Shown: in pieces, positions 5,808 through 20,505 of the stretch
Position numbering within the stretch: the stretch's first letter is position 1
Layout of the letters: each line of letters begins with the position of its first letter
Assembly: GCA_963971425.1 (NCBI GenBank)
Contig: OZ020521.1
Coordinates: forward strand, 3,040,501-3,104,500
DNA from: Bryoerythrophyllum caledonicum
Lineage: Eukaryota > Streptophyta > Bryopsida > Pottiales > Pottiaceae
Reading direction: 5' to 3'
Length of the DNA stretch: 64,000 nt
Notes under the pieces: model-generated
What the model was told of the DNA's origin: nothing
The model's database searches: none
The model's input: the letters and a program-made list of their open reading frames with translations, nothing else
Program-made: the position numbers and the translations under genes

Positions 5808-6376
5808 GTGTTGCTTCATCATTCCATCCTACTAAACTTTTGCCCAGTGGGCATCGCCTTAGTAGTGGAACGAACAGACACTTTATTCACGCCGGCCTCT
5901 TCTAGAGACCGGAGTTCTTCTTCTTCTTCTTCTTCTTCTTCTTCTTCTTCTTCTTCTTCTTCTTCTTCTTCTTCTTCTTCTTCTTCTTCTTCTTCTTCTT
6001 CTTCTTCTTCTTCTTCTTCTTCTTCTTCTTCTTCTTCTTCTTCTTCTTCTTCTTCTTCTTCTTCTTCTTCTTCTTCTTCTTCTTCTTCTTCTTCTTCTTC
6101 TTCTTCTTCTTCTTCTTCTTCTTCTTCTTCTTCTTCTTCTTCTTCTTCTTCTTCTTCTTCTTCTTCTTCTTCTTCTTCTTCTTCTTCTTCTTCTTCTTCT
6201 TCTTCTTCTTCTTCTTCTTCTTCTTCTTCTTCTTCTTCTTCTTCTTCTTCTTCTTCTTCTTCTTCTTCTTCTTCTTCTTCTTCTTCTTCTTCTTCTTCTT
6301 CTTCTTCTTCTTCTTCTTCTTCTTCTTCTTCTTCTTCTTCTTCTTCTTCTTCTTCTTCTTCTTCTTCTTCTTCTTC
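5808..6376 (+). mobile_element. 5'-truncated SINE with expanded TTC tail
   Basis: Positions ~5808-5914 match the 3' end of the SINE family (compare the reverse complement of 45428-45540), including ACACTTTATTCACGCCGGCC and a closing ACCGGAG. The tail that normally has a few TTC units here runs for 154 perfect units (5915-6376). The element sits inside a Gypsy gag relic, with gag sequence resuming on both sides. No clear target-site duplication was found. Confidence 0.75.
5915..6376 (+). repeat. (TTC)154 perfect microsatellite
   Basis: 462 bp of uninterrupted TTC on the plus strand (GAA on the minus strand), starting directly after the SINE body and ending at ATCCTACGC. Poly-Ser and poly-Lys frames across it are artefacts. 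Long GAA/TTC tracts are known to form triplex DNA and to affect transcription and replication. Whether the length is exact depends on the assembly. Confidence 0.97.
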
Positions 6377-6960: not shown

Positions 6961-7625
6961 TCTTGGCTTAGTAGAGGATAAATTGCAACCTTTGAACCTT
7001 CAAACCTTTAGGGAGAGGGGTTGTCCGCTGCTCTCATAAGAAGTACAAAACTCGAATAACACGCAATTAAGCAATTATGCACTTGGGCATATAAAAGTGC
7101 ACTTGGGTACAACGGCGGCCATTGCGAACAAAAGTGGCAAAATTGCAAAAAATTAAAAAAAATCAAAGAAAAAAAAAGATTTTCAAAGAAAAAAAATTGA
7201 GCTACTACAACAATATTACGTACAATCATGGTTGTTAATATTGGAAGCAATTTTTAGGCATTTTCAACTAATTTGTGGTGGCCCCTCTTTAATATTAGAT
7301 AAATGTGTATTTAATATAGTTTCAAAATATTTCAAAGATAGATTTGAAGGATTGTAATATACAAACAGGCGTAATCACAGAAAAACATACTTTATGCAAG
7401 GGTTGGCAGTTGATTAAAAGATATTCAACGTAGTATATAATGCATACAATGGTGGAAACTAAATATAGATTCTTCTACAAATGGACTTAGCACCAATAGT
7501 AAAATTACCTTTACTCTATAGGATTAATGACATAACGTCTTACATCACCCTTAGAATATACTACTCTTACACATACACTATATATCTATTAATATACACA
7601 ACTAGTATACTCTCATAAAGGCACA
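6961..7625. other. AT-rich DNA, probable LTR-retroelement remnant
   Basis: The segment near 7055-7090 containing ACGCAATTAAGCAATTATGC recurs in inverse orientation near 19175-19215. The adjacent GAGGATAAATTGCAACC near 6973 resembles 19247-19265. This suggests fragments of one LTR-type family next to the gag relic. No intact LTR can be delimited. Confidence 0.4.
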
Positions 7626-7629
7626 CTAT

Positions 7630-10600
7630 CTACTCCACAGAATTTAGGGCTGCTTGCAAACGGTCGTCATCGATAGCTTCGGTTTGCATTGCAATATATT
7701 GTAGGATGTGAGCCTTTGCCGATTGAAGAATGCGAATCCTGCTTTCAACATGCACTCCAAATACATTGCGCTTTCTGCACCTGCTGGCCCCGGACATGGT
7801 TCTTTCCGGTGTGTCTACCCATGAAAAAATGCATGCATCTTTCTCTACCCAACTATGGCACTCCCCAGATGGCTCCCACAATGAATCCATGCAATTTGCA
7901 TACCGTTGTGCAGAAGACCCATGTCCATCAGCAACCCCCCTTTGGATGATGGGCCAATACCAACAAACCTTAGTCTTAAGTCTCCATCGGTTTTTTCCTT
8001 CCTCAATCACTTTCCCCACATAGAATGGTACACCGCCTTCTATCTCTGCTCGATCAACACTCAAGGCTACAAACTGTCCACAACGGATATCTGATTGTGG
8101 ATTAAATGGTGGAAATGGGTCGTGATTACCTTCATACATTGCTCCTTCTTCGGCGCGTTCCTCAACATAGTTGCGCTCTGTTTGTTGTGCCCTACGCACT
8201 GCTTGATTAGAGGGTCTTCCTCTACGAGGACCAAAGTATCCTCGAGACTCGGCATTTGGAAGCATGGCCACTACCTGCTCTACGACATTTATCTCGCGAT
8301 TTTCTTCACTTCCACCATCCATTACATCCAAAGATGCGCTCCCTACAGGTCCAATGTTGGAGAACTCTGAAGGCCAAAACGGTGACGTACGATGCTCATT
8401 GCTACGATCTTTGTGTGGAAATTGAGCTAAATAGAGTTTCAATCTTTCAGCCTCTACTTTTGCCTCACGATTCTTGTCCTCATGCTGCAACCTTTGAATG
8501 CACCTTTGTTTATATGCAATGAAGTCATCCAACGCCTTCAACTCCCGTTCGTCCGCTGCAAATACTTCCGCAAACGATGGTCGCTCATCCCTATTTGGCA
8601 ACGACCTCAAAGTTTTCGTCCTTGCCTCCGGTCCCCATGGATCCTTGCAATAATGTTTGTGTTGTACTCGAACCTCACGAGTCCCTTCTCGATTGTCCAT
8701 ATAGAATCGCATGTGGTGCGGAAATGTTATGCCCACCAATGAATCCTGACCTGTCAGTAAGTGAGGAGTTATGAACACTTTCCAATCCCATACATTCTCT
8801 AGCAGCCGGGCACTAACAAATGCCTCCGTAGGAGATGTTCCTCGTTCTATAAGACCAATCATTTCCTTCAACGAGTCCACGTCCGACCTCTTCAACGTAT
8901 TTGATATACAGGTGAAACGTTGATCAATATCTTCGTGTGTATGGCCCACTATAAGAAAAGATAGTTCCACCTCCTGAAAAAACCCCAATCCCACCAATGT
9001 AGCACATAGAGCAAACATGTAAATGTTTTTGTTCTCACGCGTGCAGTTGTCGGCCTGAATTCGCAGTGTTGGTGGCAAAAAGCCCCTCCTCCGTAGCACA
9101 TCTCCAATCACGTACAACAATGTACTCACGACTTGATTGCTATCGTGTTTGTGGTGAGCCCCAAACCACACGTCGCAATATAAACCAATCCCATGTACAA
9201 GAGCACCACACAGATGGGTCTTCACAAACCGATGTTCAATGTCTTCACAGTCTGACGCATCCTCGGTACCATGGTCGTGTTTTGGTCCATGCCATCCACT
9301 ATGATGCACATGTACAACTCAGGGCTAATATAACACGACCTCTTGAATATCCAATAATGCCTACGTTCTTCCATCTGATTGCGCAGATGCAACATAAACA
9401 ACTCCTTTATCTTTATCCTTGCATCCGCATTGGTGGTTCCCTCCATGGCACATTTATACTCCCAACAATGATAACACTTTGAGAATCTCGAGAATGGAGG
9501 TACCTGAACGTGGGGATACTTGATGCGCCACATCCTCCGGAACGAACTCATAGAAATGGTTTCTCCATTACAAATTCTCTTGACCTCCTCGTTCACGTAA
9601 TTGAATACATCAAATTTGGCTGTATTCATAGGAAGGAGAATGAGAGGCACCACTTCGTTGTCACTCTTACGGCGAATACAACGATGAGGTTGAGGACAAC
9701 CAGCTTCATCAACAAACGATTTAAAGCAAGCCTCTGCTACAGACATTCTAGTACTCTCTCTTATCGGATCTGAAAGGGTATTGCCGTGAATCGATGTCAC
9801 TCTTCCATATATTAGACAGTCCTTCTTCAATTGCTTAAAGCGCCTCTGTGAATATCCAACCCCAAGAGCATAGCAAGCATTGCAAACTTCTTTCCCATCT
9901 AACTTTGTAACAAACTTGTCTCGACGAGTTCCTTCCGTCCTTGTGTAAAAAGAAACCAGCATCTGTCTCATCCACGTACTTCGAACTGAAAACTCACTAC
10001 CCCATGCATTATATCGCATGTCCAATAGATACCTTGCTGGAACATCCATCAAACAATTGCGTTTGCATCCTCCTTGTGCCATTGCAATTTGCACGCTTCT
10101 AAGCGATACCTTAGATGGTGCAGCTTCTGTCAATGATGGCTCCCTTGAATCTCTCCTTCTCCTATTTTGCATAGAATATGGACGACGTGTTGGTCTAACA
10201 CAAGCAAATCCATCTACATGGGGCAAATCTTGGATATTTGAGGAAGTAGATTGGGAAAACGGTGAATTTTCATCTATGGCGTTTGAAGCATGACTACTGC
10301 GTCGAGACCTCTGGGTGGATCCTGGTGTGTTGATGAACTCAGGAAAATCAAATTCTGGGGCCATCACTTCTGCAGGCGCTATCTCTGATCCAATGTCACC
10401 ATGGACACCTGTGATATCAGGTTCTTCAGCCACTACACGTAGCAAAGATCGATGCCAACGAATGATCAAGCCCACACACATGCCAAGGCGTTCTCCTACA
10501 ATCTCTCCGGTCCAATGCAATGCATCATCTACCCTAGTGATACGCACCGCCACCTCGAATGGGAACAACTTTGATCCATTCAATTCCATGCCACTTTTGA

Positions 10601-10859
10601 ATGCATGCTCGCTGGTTGCTAAGCCCACCACATCTCCTCTTTCTGAAAGCAATTCTACTGCCCTTTCCAATTCAGAAGTCATGATCCCAACAGATCTCTG
10701 TTGAATTTGCCTTGCACGTGCTGCTCGTACTAATCGGGCCCCCACAGAGCTATTAGAAGGCATATTGTCGCTTTCGATGTGTGGCCGTATCAAAGGAGTC
10801 TGAATCGTGCGGCTCTCCATTATCACTATTGAAAAAATAGGAACATTATGGCTGCACAT
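7630..10859 (-). pseudogene. DUF7869-type putative DDE transposase, one frameshift
   Basis: Two overlapping minus-strand frames (10859-9222 and 9309-7630) together encode about 1080 residues. Start choices are 10859, a Met 13 residues downstream, or a Met near 10762. The first half has Cys pairs (VCNACYALGVG near 9890; SKCYHCWEYK near 9470) and ends with IIVDGMDQNTT (~9300). The second half continues with GALVHGIGLY, QADNCTRENKN (~9045) and VGHTHEDIDQRF (~8935). These Asp-bearing blocks are the hallmark of DUF7869 proteins and suggest a DDE/D-like nuclease fold. A C-terminal segment (8090-7950: GQFVALSVDR, VPFYVGKVIEE) resembles a small Tudor/BAH-type module. The frames join if one base is missing in the AAA run at 9236-9238. 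No intron of workable size would fix it. It is flanked by inverted TTAACCC repeats at 624-2030 and 11039-11985. Confidence 0.75.
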
Positions 10860-11038
10860 TAGTCAAAATACATGTACTAATTGTTAACCTTCAAAGCACC
10901 ATTCATCTGATAAAAGGTATGTTTCTAAACACATATTTACTGTCCAAAATATGATGATGATATTGTACCTTTTGATAAAACTGCTTTGACATGAGAAAAT
11001 TAAGAATTTTTAGAACATGAACTCCTTGCACGGAGTCT
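10860..11038. other. upstream region of the putative transposase
   Basis: Short AT-rich spacer between the transposase start and the inverted repeat R1. It presumably holds the promoter, but no element can be named. Confidence 0.4.
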
Positions 11039-11985
11039 TTAACCCTGAAGGTACAATGATAGTGTTACACCAAAAACACTTCTAAATTGTTGGATTCCAG
11101 TGCAACAAACAAAAAATGAAACAAAAACTTTTATTTCTAGTTTTGACCTTAGTTTCTCAATTACGACTTATTAATTAATAATTTAAAAACATTCATAAAC
11201 TTTGACCGCACGGATTGAAAGATTATAGTGTTTGAAGTGAAGCTTATGATTCATTTACTTCCCTGCGTGTACTGGATCAGCAGACTTTGACTTCACTTCG
11301 TGTCAATTTTTTTTTTACAGAAGGTCTAAATCCTTAACCATCTTGTTAAGCATGATGTTAGTTCCTTGTACACCAATTTTTAGAGGGAGAAAAAAGGTGT
11401 AGCATATTCAGAACAACTGTGCAAAGAGTCGAAGTTCGGAATTTGTTAATTCACACTGTATTTTTTTGTGAACTTAATATGTTTTAGATTGGTAATTGAA
11501 ATGGTCAATAAGAAGGTTTACACCACATATTGTAGTGGAAGAAAAAAGTGAAAAATAAAAAGATATCTAGGTTTTATTTGGAAATCAAGAAGTTTTTTTG
11601 GTACCTTGCCCATCACTGACTGACAATGTGTGAAAATGTTTGATTTGGGTTGGTATGCTATTTTTCAATAAAGACAAGAACTTATTTTGACAACATCAAG
11701 GGAAATAATTTTACTTTTGAGTACAAAAAATCTCACAATCAACAGAGTGTCCTAGCAAAAGTTTTTGGAGGTGCCCAACTTGTTTGCTCTCTCCATTTTA
11801 AATTTATAACCCTATAACTTTTTGATCAAATGTCCAATTTACGTAAAAATTATTTTCCCACTAAGGTTTTGGTAATGCCTTTCTATAGTAAAATTTACAA
11901 AGAGGAATGTTGGACATTGACACCATAGAAACCTGACCAAACATTCAACAAGCCAATTTTGGACACTTGATCCTTTAGGGGTTAA
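11039..11985 (+). mobile_element. ~950 bp TTAACCC-ended repeat, copy R1, intact
   Basis: The left end reads TTAACCCTGAAGGTAC and the right end CCTTTAGGGGTTAA, so both termini are TTAACCC-like inverted ends beginning with TTAA. The body matches L1 (624-1541) in inverse orientation and R2 (12276 on) in direct orientation. It has no coding frame. Its intact double-ended structure argues that the ~950 bp unit can move by itself. Confidence 0.75.
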
Positions 11986-12275
11986 ATATGCTACACCTCT
12001 TTTGCATTCCTAAACATTGGTGAATAATGGAACTAATCAATCTTCACATGATGATTATGAACCTAGATCATGTGTGATGCAATCTTTTGAATCCAAGTGA
12101 ACTAAAACGAAGGGAATTCACTGAACCTAGGGAAGAAAATGAACCATGTTGTCTACTTGCTATTATTGACACCATTGGAACTTGTTACAATCGCAAATTA
12201 AATAATGGATTTGTACGTCCACATAAAGGTTATTCTACAAACAACATAGTACAAAAGATCAATCAAGAATCAATC
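11986..12275. other. spacer between repeats R1 and R2
   Basis: AT-rich sequence with a 69-codon frame (12087-12296) that has no recognisable motif and runs into the next repeat. It is not regarded as a gene. Confidence 0.4.
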
Positions 12276-12818
12276 TTAACCCCTAAGGTATCGTGACAGT
12301 TTTACACCAAAAACACTTCAAACTAAATGGATTCTAGTGCAACGAATAAAGAAGGAAACAAAAACTTTGATTTTTAGTTCTGACCGTAGGATCTCAATAA
12401 AGGCTTATTAAGTAATACATGTACAAAATTTCAAAAACTTTGTTCTCACGGATTAAAAGATTATAGTGTTTGAAGTCAACCAAATGGTTCATTTTCTTCC
12501 CTGCGTTTAGTAGATCAATAGACGTTGACTTCAGTTGGTGTCAAAAAATTTCACTACAAAAGGTCTAAATCTATTACCATCTTGTTAAGCATAATGTGAG
12601 CTCCTTACATTTTATTTTTTAGAGGTAGAAACCGGGTGTAGCATATTCAAAACAAGTGTGCAAGGAGTGGAGGCTTGAAATTTGTTAATTCACAGTTTAA
12701 TTTCTTTTTAACTTAATATGTTTTTGATTGACAATCCGAATGGTTAATATGAAGGTTTACATTACATATTGATGTGGAAAAAATAAAAAGTGAAAAATAT
12801 GAAGATTATTTGGAAAAC
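12276..12818 (+). mobile_element. TTAACCC-ended repeat, copy R2, cut by the gap
   Basis: It starts TTAACCCCTAAGGTATC and follows R1 closely through the ACACCAAAAACACTTC, ACGGATTAAAAGATTATAGT and GTGTAGCATATTC blocks. It ends at the run of N at 12819. Confidence 0.75.
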
Positions 12819-13018
12819 NNNNNNNNNNNNNNNNNNNNNNNNNNNNNNNNNNNNNNNNNNNNNNNNNNNNNNNNNNNNNNNNNNNNNNNNNNNNNNNNNN
12901 NNNNNNNNNNNNNNNNNNNNNNNNNNNNNNNNNNNNNNNNNNNNNNNNNNNNNNNNNNNNNNNNNNNNNNNNNNNNNNNNNNNNNNNNNNNNNNNNNNNN
13001 NNNNNNNNNNNNNNNNNN
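12819..13018. other. assembly gap (200 N)
   Basis: Exactly 200 undetermined bases, the size of a conventional placeholder, so the true gap length is unknown. Frames spanning it are meaningless. Confidence 0.99.
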
Positions 13019-13330
13019 TTTTTTCTTTCTTCCCCCCACTCACCCACACACAATTTCCCTCACCCACTCTCTCCTTCTCTCTCCTAAACCCTTGCCGCCC
13101 ACAACTTCACTCACACCTCTCACAACTTCCTTCACACCTCCCACAACTTCCACACATCTCCCACACATTTCTCACACATCTCTCCCACACATCTCCCACA
13201 CATCTCCTCACACCTCCCACACATTGTCTCTCTCCTCCTAACCCTACCCTCTCACTCACAGCCTCATCACAACTTCTACCAGGGGTGTGCGCTCGCACAC
13301 CCCTCCTAGGACTACCCACTTGAGCAAAGG
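13019..13330. repeat. CT/CA-rich low-complexity stretch
   Basis: Pyrimidine-rich strand with irregular repeats of CACACATCTCCC and CTCACACCTCCC (about 13100-13240). Short AAACCCTAA telomere-like motifs follow at 13362-13383. No gene is visible. It is unrelated to the flanking TTAACCC repeats and may belong to an element whose remainder lies in the gap. Confidence 0.5.
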
Positions 13331-13559
13331 ATTGATATCCTTATTGATACCCGGAAATCCAAACCCTAATCCAAACCCTAATATGGTACACCGGTTGATA
13401 ACCGGTCGTGATACCAAGGAGATCATACCCTGGTCGTGATACCCTGGATATTGATACCCGTAGTACCTTGGTCCATAAATATTGTAGAGAATATCTAACC
13501 CAAATATCGTTAAAATTGCTTGTTTTTGTGCAATTAGAAAGCCTCTACAATTAATGTTT

Positions 13560-14590
13560 TTTTAAATTTTTAACCGTAGGATCTGAATGATGACTTATTA
13601 AGTAATATGCTCAAAAAAAATTCATAAAGTTTCACCGCACGGATTGAAAGATTATAATGTTTGAAGTAGTGAAAATGCTCATTTTCTTCCCTGCGTTTTC
13701 TGGATCAGCAGTCTTTGATTTCAATTGGTGTCACATTTTTGCACTATAAAAGGTTTCAATTAATTACCACAATGTTAAGCATGATGTTAATTTGCTACAT
13801 ACCGATTTTTAGAGTTAGAAAAGGGGTGTAGCATATTCAAAAAAATTGTGCAATGAGTGGGGGTTCAAAAATTCACCATTCACGTTATGTTTTTTGTGAA
13901 CTTGGTATCGTTTGAAATGAGAATCCAAATGGTCAATACGAAGGTTTACATCACATAATGCCGTAGAAAAAATAAAAAGTGAATCATACAAAGATCTCAA
14001 AGGTTTATGTGGAAAGGTAGAAGTTTTTTCGTACTCTCCTCGAAACTGTGTGACAATGTGTGAAAATAATTGACTTGGATTACTATGCTTTTTCACCAAA
14101 GAACTAACAACATGGTTAACACGATGGTATTGGATTTAGATCTCGTGTAGTGCAACAGTTTTTAGGGGTAGACAAGGGGTGTAGCATATTTTTTTTAAAT
14201 GTGCAATGAGTGGAGGTTCAAAAATTCACAATTCACGTTATGTTTTTTTGTGAACTCGATATTGTTTTAAATGAGAATCCAAATGGTAAATAAGAAGTTT
14301 TACATCGCATAATGCTGTAGGCAAAATCAAAAGTGAATCGTACGAAGTTCTTGTAGTTATATGTGGAAAGGTAGAAGTTTTGTTGTATTCTCCCCGAAAA
14401 TGTGTGACAATGTGTGAAAATAATTGACTTGGATGAATATGCTATTTCACCAAAGAACTAACAACATGGTTAACACGATGGTATTGGATTTAGATCTTGT
14501 GTAGTGCAAAAGTTTTTAGAGCTAGACAAGGGGTGTTGCATGTTCAAAAATATTGTGCAATGAGTGGTGGTTCAAAAATTCTTATTCCAT
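13560..14590 (+). mobile_element. TTAACCC-family repeat, copy R3, with internal tandem duplication
   Basis: From about 13560 the sequence matches the R1/R2 body (TAGGATCTGAATGATGACTT, GCACGGATTGAAAGATTATA, CTGGATCAGCAG and following). The distal part is then repeated with a period of ~354 bp: the block CACCAAAGAACTAACAACAT occurs at 14094 and again at 14448, each followed by a re-start of the GGGTGTAGCATATT segment. A third partial unit runs into the start of the plus-strand gene at 14645, so these repeats form its immediate upstream region. Confidence 0.7.
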
Positions 14591-14644
14591 ACTAATAGTG
14601 ACTATTGTTTTGTAATGATATACAGGTTTTTTGAGTGTTGCGTT

Positions 14645-17600
14645 ATGGCACCACCAAATATTGATAGAATCTGGGAGAGCCACGGCTGGTGGATTGCAGA
14701 AGTGGATGAGTCGAGCGCCTTCTTATGGGTGACGGATTATCCCTTTGAGCTGGGAAAGCGTACATCGGCGTTGGGGAAGAGTTTTGGCAAAATCCAAGCA
14801 ATCACTCTTCGACGTGATGATATGGTATACGTTACTTGCGCAGTGGGTCCAGGTCAATCGGAGGTGAAGACTTCTCTTTCGAAGAAATTGCTTTTGGCAC
14901 CTGTACCTTTGAATCTTCTTCAAAATCCAGGTCAGGTGAAATTCCTCAAATCATTGCAGACGTTTTGGTTAAACATCTCTCTTGCGGTACGTACTACTAG
15001 ACACAACAACGTCTTAGCCTGTTTAGCGTTATGACCGGAGATGGTGCTGAAGGCTAAGAAGATTATGGAGGAACATATTAGATATGAAGCATTTCGGGAG
15101 AGGGACCCATCACGTGCGACAACTCAAGCCCCACCAGCGGAACCAGAAGAAACAGAAGTTTATCGAGTTCTTGCTGAGCCGTTGCAACTGGATTGGCGAC
15201 CACTGGAGGGGGGGAGGGGAAGTGGAGGCCAACATCCCAGCACAACTTCTGAGGTACAGACATTACCGAATCCTCCATTAACGAGTAGACGTCCTACGAA
15301 GAGGCCACGGCGTGTTGACAGTGATGAAGCTTCTGGTTCAAGAGAAAGCCCATCAAGTTTGGATCCAAGTGGGAGGAGGTTGATTGGGAGAAGTGCAAGA
15401 TCGGGTGGCAGGATTCCTAGGTCGGGGCTCAGGACGTCTGATGGTCATCGTAGGGCCCCTACATCTACACCAGGAGATGTAGCTGATTTGTCAGCCGTGG
15501 CGCCGGAGGAAGAAGATTTTCACAACCTTCCAGACAGTATACCAGAGGATTTCGAAGACAATGCGGAGATACCACAGGATCTTCCAACTTCAATGTATTT
15601 AAAAGCACCAGTGCCTACAACGGAGGAGATTGCGAAAGGATCAGTGTGGGGGAATTTTGTGTTTAAGGCACACATAGACCGCATTGTCTGTCTGGAGAAC
15701 CCGGAAACGAACCACCGGGTTTTATCACAGAAGAGGGTCAGAGAAGTATTTAACCGCTTAAGAGACCCAGAATCTGCGAGTCGGGTGAGTAGATTGGTAC
15801 TTCGACCGATCAGATACATCGTACATACTACCACCGATAATGGTGTCATTGAGAAGGAGGAGCTGCCATTTCCGTTGGTAGGAACTGCACGAGAGTTTGA
15901 GCGCATGTTCATTGCACACGGGAGTGCTTCTGCACAGGGTGCGATGGGATCCCAGTATTCTTGGCTTCAAGATCATATCATTTGGGAACCGGTGGATGGC
16001 CAACACATAGTAGCAGCTTGTAAGTTTGCACAGCAGCAGTGGAGAGATGGTACTATGCCTTTAAATGAGTACCTGGACACGTTCGAGCGGCGGGAGGCCT
16101 CTTTTGTGGTGTATGATGATCGTCGCTTTTACATTGAGAAGTCTGCGCGGATCAACGTGGCGGAGTTCCAGAGACATTCATATTCTACCATCGAGGAGGA
16201 TTTGAGGAAGATCCGTCAGATTTGGGATCTATACGGAAGGCCTGATAGCACACTACGTGCGGACGATGCACGCAGGGTTGTTGCTTTGGTGAGTGCGGCA
16301 AGTGCAGTACATAAGTTGCCCAAGGGGGATGGAGTTGTCACGGTGAAGAGGTTGGCCAAAAACATGGAGGATCTGACCAATCATGCATGGAATCTGAGCA
16401 ATGACTGCTTCGAAGCTATCATTCAAGTATGCAAGGACTACGAAGACGGCATTCTCTTTTACAGCAAGGAGGAAGAAGACAAGTGGAAGGACATGGCGAG
16501 GAAGAATGAGCTGGATCCAAATGTGGACGTACGACCAACAAGAAAGGAGATGACGCAAAATTGGTTGAGGCCGTTAGGTAGGGTTCCAAATCCATATTAT
16601 CTTCGGTTGGCTAAGTCTGCTGTAGCGAAGCCGGTGGGGGATGATGGAGTAAGACCACGTCAAGCATATTACTTCGACGGTGTAAAAGACAAGAATCCAC
16701 ATCCTCGTACGATTGCCGGTGTGGTTGACCGATATCAGAGACGAGAAGCTGTGATGAATTCCATCCGTTGGTTGATGGTGGAGAACAAGGAAAGTACACC
16801 TGATTCCATGGAGGATTTCTTTCGTATCCGTGTAGGGAAGTATTTTCCGAGGAGTAACGCACAACTTGATACGTTTGGGAAGCTTTTGAATGCTGCCACG
16901 AAAAAAGCTTGGACTGCTCCTGTGCGGGGGAAGGTGTCTAAACTAGAAGACATAGGCTACCTCATCCCCCCTTCCATCAGGTTTCACTATAGTGACATTG
17001 CAGCAGGGGGGCGTGGATACATTGGACTGTCCGTGGATGTGGGAGGACATGCTACTGCTAATTAGGAATGGCAGATGGAAGTCAAGAGGCCAGGCCAGAG
17101 CGACACTGAGAATCTTCTTCCGGTTCGGTGTAGAAGAGGGTTATTCCGCACCAACTACATAGAGTTGGGGAAACCATGTTTGTGGGTGATTGATTGTCGA
17201 CGTGGCGGTGGGAGGCATGGAGATGGTCATTGGGGAGACGCCCAGTTATCCGCAGTTTTTGCACAGTTGGCATTATGGATGGCAAATATTGAACGATGGA
17301 ACGTCATCTTCTTGTTACCAGCGGCCGTATATGCCAACGAAGACTTTTTCACGAAGGTGAAGCTTCCAGAGGGATGTACTATGCGACGTGGATGCTGGGC
17401 ATTTGATCCAAACTCGGTTAATCCCTATGCTCTCGATTTTACAGAGAATGGGCGTTTGGAGCAAGTAGTACAACCGATTGGCGATATTGTGATTTGTATG
17501 CAGCACCCTGTGGGTACATCTCCTGGCCCGAACTATGTTTCTGGAGACGTTCCACTTCCACTTGTTTTCTTGGATCACTGGAGTGAGGCACGCCAACCCT

Positions 17601-18610
17601 CTGAAGTTGATTCACTTGAGAGATCTCCATTAGAGCTGGCAAGACTAGTGGGCTCATACTTGCCCCGTGGTTGGGGTTTAGTGGCGTGTAACATATCTAC
17701 GGCCATTCCCACGATCCTTGAAGGAGATTTCCACGGATCTGAGGTTTTCATCATTGACGATTGTACAGACAGAGTTTGCTTTTTGTACAATGAGTTGTCC
17801 GACAATTTCCAAGGACAACTGTTGGTCAGGACTGGTGGAACAAGTACTGGTTGGAACATTGTACCTGAGACCGAAGAGGCGGTTGGTGGAGTGAGGAATG
17901 AAGATGACAATGAGGATGGAGGTGGTTTAAATGAGAGATTGCCACGTTCAGGTACTACTGAAGATTTCTCATCTCGCAGTGGTTCAGACGCCGATGAAGA
18001 TGGAGTGAACCAGTCTCCTCCAAGAGACAGGATTCCATCAACGCAGCGGGCGGTGGGAGATACTTCAGGGCAGACATCTGCAACACCTACAGAGAGGATG
18101 CAAGATACTGGTGTAGTGGATGTTGGTTTGGCGGCAGAGGCAGGAGGGGGGCGTACATTTGATGGTCCTAGGTTGGAGATGGAGGAAGAAGAATTGGATT
18201 CATTGGAATTTTTTTCGGTGCAAAGGAGGATTCGACAGCCTTTGATGCCTTCTCAATCAGAGCCTGTATCGGAGACACAAGAGACGTTCGGAGGTACTCA
18301 GAGTGATACCGGACTAGGTTTGCCTTCCGTTCCAAGATCTAGCGTATCCGAGGACATCATTGCATTCCAGGGGGCCTTCTCGTCAGAGCGAGAGATGTCC
18401 TTCAATCCTGAAGATGGCTTTTTCTACAATGATGATCGCGTAAGGCATACGCGGGAGGGTGTACCTGGCAATTACCGATTTGTTGAGTGTGCGTCCATTG
18501 GTATCGAAGATGTGGGAGATCGTCCAGTGCAGGATCATGAACTGTCCGCTATGGTAGGTAGCGCCATTGGACACGTGGAGGGAGTCGTTCCGCCAGAAGA
18601 TGAGCTCTGA
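14645..18610 (+). CDS. transposon-associated ParB-like / degenerate DNA methyltransferase-like protein
   Basis: Three long open segments, 14645-15034, 15041-17065 and 17075-18610, lie in the same frame and are separated by single stops near intron-like signals. They probably form one gene of roughly 1250-1330 residues. Segment 1 (MAPPNIDRIW start) is a small Trp-rich domain, perhaps Tudor/BAH-like. Segment 2 has a disordered Arg/Ser-rich stretch, then a region with VDGQHIVAACKFAQQQW (nt ~15990-16040), resembling the DGQHR/ParB nuclease motif. Segment 3 has VIDCRRGGGRHGDGHWGD (17182-17238) and RSPLELARLVGSYLPRGWGL (~17620-17680). In position these resemble the catalytic DPPY motif and the KP-L...G-VLD-F-GSG motif of N4/N6 DNA methyltransferases, with catalytic residues replaced. 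An acidic, disordered tail follows. The domain calls are pattern-based and have not been searched. Confidence 0.6.
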
Positions 18611-19700
18611 GCCTTGGAGCTATATACTATAGTAGAGCATGCACGTAGTTTAGGTGGCAAGTACGTTAGTATAATGTAGTTTGAGATGTGTCTATCGTTT
18701 GGTGGGTGCTATATATTTATATATTGGATGGTCCATATGATATGTTTGATTTTAGAATTCCTCAGTGATAGTGTGGAATTGCTTGATTATGTATGTTTTT
18801 GCATTATAAAATACATTTTCAACTACTTTACACTGTCTTAGGAAATTGCATATATATTTTTGTATCTCTTACACATTGTATTTGTAGTGTAGTACTCTAA
18901 AATCCTATAATAACTCATAACAAATTTTTAATCTCTTTGGGCACATGATTATAATTTTGTAGCAGGATTTGTAAACTAGATTAGATATCATATATTTTCT
19001 AAAAAAAGGTAGAAAATGTTAAAAATATATTACTGATATGAACATGAAGAAGCCAAGGTATGACACGACAAACACCAAAAAAATTTGACAAAAAACATAC
19101 TAAACTTTTGCCAAATTTTGATTTAAAAAAAAGTTATGAGCAAACAACTTGCGGCTTTCTACCAGCAACCAGTGCACTTGGCCAAGTGCATAATTGCTTA
19201 ATTGCGTGTTTGAATGTTGTGACAAAATGAGATACCAGATTAGAAAGGATAAACCGCAACCTCTAAAATTGCTAGTACACCTTCAAAAAAGAGGGGGAAG
19301 AACGGCAACCTCTAGAAGGACCCTAACTCTGATACTCAAGTGAGTTCAATCTCAACAAACTGTCAAGAAAATAGGATACAAGAATACTTGACAAGAACTA
19401 GAACCCACAAGAACTAAAAGAGGGAAAATTGATATGAACTTGGATCAACAAGATGAGCACACGAACAACAAGAGTAGTGAGCGATAGCTCCAAGAGATGC
19501 GTTGTCGAGATTGAAGAACTCTTTAACCTTGACTCCTATATATAACCTAATCTAAAGTGAAAGGATTTCTTAAGTAAAAGAAAGTTCTAATTTAGTAAAA
19601 GCAAAAAAATAGGATTTCTAAAGTAAAAGCCCAATTTAAAGTAAAAAGAACTAGAAGGTTGCAGAGGTCATGTCCCTAACACCAATGTCATTTGCAAGGA
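18611..19700. other. AT-rich downstream region with LTR-like fragments
   Basis: No gene is visible. The part at ~19150-19350 shares, in inverse orientation, the ACGCAATTAAGCAATTATGC segment and GATAAACCGCAACC-like sequence with 6970-7090. It is probably a remnant of the same LTR-type family. Confidence 0.4.
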
Positions 19701-19739: not shown

Positions 19740-20505
19740 AAATGATGTTATTTCCTTTGAGATCTTTAAAAATTAATAAACTCTTGTCTTCAATGTAAAA
19801 ATCCCAATTTAGTACAAGTCAAAATTTTCACACCATGCTAGACAAGGCACCAATTTTTTTAATTAAAAAAAGAGATTTCAATAGTTTTTAGTTTAAATGT
19901 TTCAAACTAGAAGACATGGTATAAGGCTTCTACTTGGCCATTTAGATTTTCATTCTAAAACATATTAAGCCTACAAAAGATTAAAATGTGTACTAGATGT
20001 TTTGAGATATTTTCTGCAAATGCTTGGACAATTATCTTCCATATTCTTCATCCTTTTTTTACCTTTAAAAATTGGTGTACAAGGAATCAACATCATACAC
20101 GGAATCAACATCATACACAAGATGATGGCATAATATAAAGACCTTGTGTAATGCAAGGTCAATATGAAGTCAAATGAAGTCAAAGTTTACTTCAAAATCA
20201 CACCATATGATGTCCAAGTCTACTGATTCTCTTCACCAAGGGAAGTTACTCAAAGAACCTTTTTCTTTAATTCAAACACTATAATCTTTCTAGATTGTGC
20301 AGTCAAATTTTATGCATTTCTATGATCATGTTATAATAATAGTCTAGATCTAGACTATTATTATAACATGATCATAGAAATGCATAAAATTTGACTGCTA
20401 TGAAGATCTATGAAGATCTATGAAGATCCTATAACCAAAAATTGATGTAATTATATTTCTTTTTTTACTCTTTACAAAAGAAGGGAACTTTTTGAGTATT
20501 TTTAT
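19740..20505 (-). mobile_element. TTAACCC-family repeat, copy L2, diverged
   Basis: It matches L1 in direct orientation and R1-R3 in inverse orientation: AATTGGTGTACAAGGAAT (~20069), CAACATCATAC, CAAACACTATAATCTTTCT (~20273) and the following gCAGTCAAATTTTATG segment. It is more diverged than the other copies, contains an 18 bp direct duplication (~20084-20119), and carries a 100 bp palindrome. Its outer end near 20505 is not clear. Confidence 0.6.
20299..20398. repeat. 100 bp perfect palindrome
   Basis: Two 50 bp arms meet without a spacer at 20348/20349 (centre AGATCT). The left arm corresponds to the ancestral sequence of the TTAACCC-family repeat, while the right arm is an inverted copy of it. 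The palindrome is followed directly by three near-perfect TATGAAGATC units (20399-20430). Confidence 0.95.

Follow-up and report, generated by a model that had tools for sequence, protein, structure and literature searches.

A single element of 12,153 bp (12.15 kb) lies within the window, by which we mean the whole 64,000-nucleotide (64-kb) stretch of DNA analysed here. It is bounded by one pair of terminal inverted repeats that encloses two genes: a ParB/methyltransferase-like gene on the forward strand and, divergent in orientation, a gene encoding a DUF7869 protein. The copy of the ParB/methyltransferase-like gene in the window is a broken member of a protein family whose intact members were found elsewhere by sequence comparison. 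Throughout this family the signatures expected of the two predicted folds are replaced. With a probability of roughly 0.5 for the reading as a whole, we interpret the product as an accessory DNA-binding protein of the DUF7869 transposon that would act on its own element and would not methylate DNA. The features on which this reading draws are listed in Table 1.

Table 1. Positions of the features in the window, in order of their first nucleotide.
Feature	Position	Strand	Remark
Candidate target-site duplication GAAT, left	7054..7057	.	flank reading
Left terminal inverted repeat	7058..7089	+	32 nt; 31/32 complementary to 19179-19210
Two direct copies of TGCACTTGG, 20 bp apart	7078..7106	+	left end
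DUF7869 gene	7630..10862	-	two overlapping frames, 9222-10862 and 7630-9318
ParB/methyltransferase-like gene, copy broken by two in-frame stops	14645..18610	+	from the frame and intact homologues
In-frame stop TGA	15032..15034	+	homologues have S, P or T at this position
Predicted ParB/sulfiredoxin-like fold	15644..16177	+	model residues 17-194
ParB Box II position, DGQHI	15995..16009	+	GxxR arginine is I or V
Helical stretch downstream of the ParB fold, perhaps HTH-like (tentative)	16184..16501	+	
In-frame stop TAG	17063..17065	+	homologues have W at this position
Predicted N4/N6 DNA-methyltransferase fold	17078..17809	+	model residues 495-738
DCRR where motif IV would read DPPY	17192..17203	+	after strand LWVID
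VACNISTAI where motif I would have its FxGxG loop	17681..17707	+	
Palindrome TGCACTTGGCCAAGTGCA, two inverted TGCACTTGG copies	19173..19190	.	right end
Right terminal inverted repeat	19179..19210	-	partner of 7058-7089
Candidate target-site duplication GAAT, right	19212..19215	.	flank reading

The element extends from 7058 to 19210. The first 29 bases of its left inverted repeat occur as two exact copies in the 64-kb window, against an expectation of 0. The candidate 4-bp duplication GAAT matches exactly only when the right end is set one base beyond the repeat, and the alternative 5-bp flanks (CGAAT and TGAAT) differ by one mismatch. The initial annotation had linked the ParB/methyltransferase-like gene to a transposon, and the single inverted-repeat pair around this gene and the DUF7869 gene bears that out; the whole is a large DNA transposon, probably of a plant genome, the word 'plant' coming from the initial annotation. 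Its true length and the make-up of its centre are uncertain because of a run of 200 N (an assembly gap) at 12819-13018. The inverted-repeat pattern had no matches in the genome contig collection, and a search against Rfam likewise gave none.

The DUF7869 gene appears broken, its two overlapping frames reflecting either a frameshift or an unrecognised intron. A Pfam profile search matched PF25273 (DUF7869) to the frame 7633-9318 (E = 1.9e-49), and the protein is probably the transposase of the element. Acidic residues picked by eye in DGMDQ, QADN and THEDID are candidates for a possible DDE/D triad. A search of PDB sequences returned a single weak match (E 0.56), and no mention of DUF7869 was found in the literature searched. 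Sola elements are described as having a DDD transposase and 4-bp duplications and as being present in Physcomitrella (PMC10741241); for these reasons Sola, as known from its published descriptions, is a tentative lead for DUF7869. With the DUF7869 gene, an unnamed Pfam domain is sited within a bounded transposon.

Both ends of the element carry a short repeat. Exact copies of TGCACTTGG number four in the 64 kb, two per element end and none elsewhere. When up to one mismatch is allowed there are 33 matches versus 16.9 expected, scattered across the window. Perfect palindromes of at least 18 bp number five in the window (TGCACTTGGCCAAGTGCA and four others), so the right-end palindrome taken alone says little. 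These end repeats could equally be transposase sites. A narrower role than the one we favour would be that of a transposition cofactor, a protein that would attach to the end repeats and aid the DUF7869 transposase in synapsis or cutting, with no part in silencing. The restriction of exact TGCACTTGG copies to the two ends speaks for such a role, as does the palindrome at the right end, but the binding is putative, palindromes of this size recur in the window and the transposase itself may be the end-repeat binder. We consider a cofactor role of this kind rather unlikely.

Between its genes the element is A+T-rich at the centre (GC 0.325) and carries direct repeats; all five exact copies of GGTGTAGCATATT are in the centre. 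One repeat family has direct copies at 11039-14581, in units of 232-354 bp with a spacing of ~1.24 kb, and diverged inverted copies outside the element at 19906-20290. A 16-mer of the same family is also present at 955-980, again outside. The central repeats were considered as the element's own control region, and this idea was dropped because of the diverged copies and the shared 16-mer beyond its borders. Near the right end, on the outside, there is a perfect 100-bp palindrome at 20299-20398 (two 50-nt arms, no spacer).

Three long ORFs (14564-15034, 15035-17065 and 17066-18610) share one common frame and cover the ParB/methyltransferase-like gene. Two stops interrupt its 1321 codons. By comparison, 200 base shuffles gave 72 stops on average and never fewer than 51, and each of the remaining five frames of the same interval contains 34-80. 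In an alignment of nine homologues the proteins stay in frame across both stop positions. The position of the TGA is covered by seven of the nine, with S in five, P in P0006 and T in P0010, and that of the TAG by all nine, every one of which has W. These stop counts and the in-frame homologues point to past coding selection; a chance open frame is ruled out, and introns as the source of the stops were thought unlikely given the continuity of the homologues. The long open frames noted at the outset are therefore real, but the copy in the window is interrupted by two nonsense codons, which the initial annotation had not mentioned. There are no frameshifts, which suggests that the break is not old.

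Three protein searches, each limited to scoring about 8000 candidates, found at least 16 relatives (P0002-P0017), 11 of them longer than 1000 aa; the nine from the first search are 1125-1488 aa long. The relatives, which come from contigs of 2.9-8.7 kb, were compared as proteins. Identity to the window protein ranges from 33 to 65% in a 10-row alignment (the window protein and the nine relatives), and is 26% and 28% for P0013 and P0014 in a second, larger alignment. Conservation in the 9-homologue alignment includes an N-terminal segment (HGWWI..., 14645-15031) and a C-terminal one (DGFYYNxDGxRHTRHG, ~18380-18500), neither of which matched a known domain. The 676-aa ORF gave no match in a tblastn search of phage, and prokaryote or phage relatives were not confirmed among either 19 pattern stretches in the viral contig collection or 2 in the genome contig collection.

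The initial annotation had proposed a combination of ParB-like and methyltransferase-like domains, and both folds are recovered by structure prediction; for neither domain did sequence profiles or sequences from Pfam, NCBIfam, PHROGs and the PDB give a convincing match. The DGQH motif is present at 15995-16006, and its surroundings do appear ParB-like, as had been supposed: in a second look with VIA-align, the predicted structure of this part matches ParB, Noc, KorB and sulfiredoxin structures, although Foldseek listed nothing for it at E <= 0.001. The model thus places this part in the ParB/sulfiredoxin fold. Box II of ParB is described as GxxR, and its R-to-A mutants lost nucleotide binding (PMC12704722). 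When placed by the DGQH motif, the arginine position is occupied by I or V in all 17 proteins, so that the GxxR phosphate motif of the ParB-CTPase fold is missing from these sequences and the usual nucleotide switching is unlikely. Beyond the ParB fold, a few chains align in VIA-align through to model residue 302, with modest Z and at 4.4-5.8 A.

The second domain is predicted to have the fold of N4/N6 DNA methyltransferases. Two blocks in it, VIDCRRGG (17186-17209) and GLVACNISTA (17675-17704), had been likened to methyltransferase motifs with replaced catalytic residues. Both are present, strand order in the predicted model puts them at motifs IV and I, and the replacement extends across the family. 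Where motif IV would read (D/N/S)PP(Y/F/W), DCRR is found in each of the 13 proteins long enough to include this position (P0014-P0017 stop short of it), and the FxGxG SAM loop, as placed from the model, is absent from 12 of the 12 rows that reach motif I. The full rows (10/10) keep T-A in this loop where glycines would be expected. Methyl transfer is unlikely because DPPY and FxGxG are both replaced. Among the 255 eight-residue windows of the domain, LWVIDCRR is the second most conserved in the 10-row alignment, tied with WVIDCRRG, and the most conserved in the 13-row alignment, whereas VACNISTA at motif I comes no higher than 61st and 91st. An altered site that is itself conserved is less easily explained by decay than by a binding function that was kept or an activity that changed. 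An alignment with a viral protein spans the two domains (688 columns, E 8.3e-8), but its rmsd is 32.5, so the ParB and methyltransferase domains do not superpose as one body.

A changed activity would mean that the domain is still an enzyme, with DCRR a re-shaped active site that marks the transposon's own DNA on another base, by another chemistry or in dependence on a partner. The pseudo-site shows some of the strongest conservation in the domain, which is consistent with this view, as are the algal ParB-methyltransferase proteins, which are predicted to make 4mC or 6mA (PMC12477816). Nevertheless, every protein long enough to cover the DPPY position or the FxGxG loop has a replacement there, and T-A stands for the loop glycines in each full row; we judge a surviving enzyme improbable.

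The closest precedent is the 21.5-kb element Sola1-1_Ec32 of Ectocarpus, in which a gene opposite the transposase encodes a 1104-aa protein with ParB-like and N4/N6 methyltransferase domains (Dinatale et al. 2025, PMC12477816). Its arrangement is the same as that described here: both folds in one protein, carried by a DNA transposon, on the strand opposite the transposase, here the probable one. The two differ in that the algal domain is predicted to methylate, whereas the signatures are replaced in the present family, a comparison made from the published description. The same source cites cases from green and red algae as a possible class of accessory proteins and proposes that they bind and modify their own element. 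Hence the make-up first taken to be unfamiliar is in print for algal transposons, and the gene kind has been reported in algae. Within the literature searched, the apparent novelty lies in a protein family whose members have lost both signatures without exception.

Fusions of the ParB-CTPase fold with N6/N4 methyltransferases are reported mainly from phages and prophages (PMC12704722); they too join both folds in one protein, but their nucleotide binding needs the GxxR that is absent here. The methyltransferase-like domain shares its fold with beta-class N6/N4 enzymes (M.BceJIV, CcrM, M.RsrI and the bdelloid N4CMT) but differs in its replaced DPPY and FxGxG, and identity in the VIA-align rows is 4-9%. 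Another parallel is one of role only. VANC, the product of a second gene in VANDAL elements of Arabidopsis, binds the non-coding regions of its element and undoes silencing (PMC5735166, PMC10398659); like the present gene it is the second gene of a DNA transposon, probably a plant one in our case as well, but its action is experimentally established, whereas that of our protein is proposed. Sola and other elements are described as capturing accessory genes, and a few viral Mariner elements as carrying methyltransferases (PMC3627910). Capture of a passenger without a role in the element, which would fit the finding of both genes together in one element only and the extra genes that giant transposons often bear (PMC12477816), is the least probable of the alternatives, since even relatives down to 26% identity have retained long open frames and share the family's replacements, and a similarly arranged gene is found in the algal Sola1 element.

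Returning to an accessory DNA-binding protein that does not methylate, the gene may have originated as a phage-type fusion, its product uniting ParB and N4/N6 methyltransferase folds and a helical region in the manner of proteins from phages and algal transposons. Its ancestral role may have been enzymatic, by analogy with the algal proteins that are predicted to methylate. With the nucleotide-binding, catalytic and SAM-loop signatures replaced, the protein would have ceased to methylate DNA and would instead be a sequence-specific binder on its own element. It might help transposition by assembling on the end repeats, or else counter host silencing. Support comes from the exact TGCACTTGG copies at the two ends, from the opposite-strand precedent of Sola1-1_Ec32 and from VANC. 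On the other side, there is one element (n=1), TGCACTTGG is scattered at one mismatch, and neither domain has a profile match.

A more detailed and more tentative possibility, which we would not yet favour, is that a phage-type ParB-methyltransferase has become a doubly inactivated reader. In such a protein the ParB part would work without nucleotide switching and the DCRR pocket would be kept for recognition of a base or ligand, and the element would use it to locate its ends or repeats or to escape silencing. A eukaryotic mobile element would then encode a pseudo-enzyme that serves in DNA recognition. The invariant replacement of both signatures suggests that recognition, and not catalysis, may be under selection. 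Moreover, as intact members of the family exist, DNA binding, SAM binding and methylation can be assayed directly.

Elsewhere in the window, 154 perfect copies of the trinucleotide TTC form an array (5915-6376) that gives rise to long but spurious open frames in both orientations. An ORF at 59152-60027 matches PF00849 (RNA pseudouridylate synthase; E 1.1e-22) and is probably a host gene.
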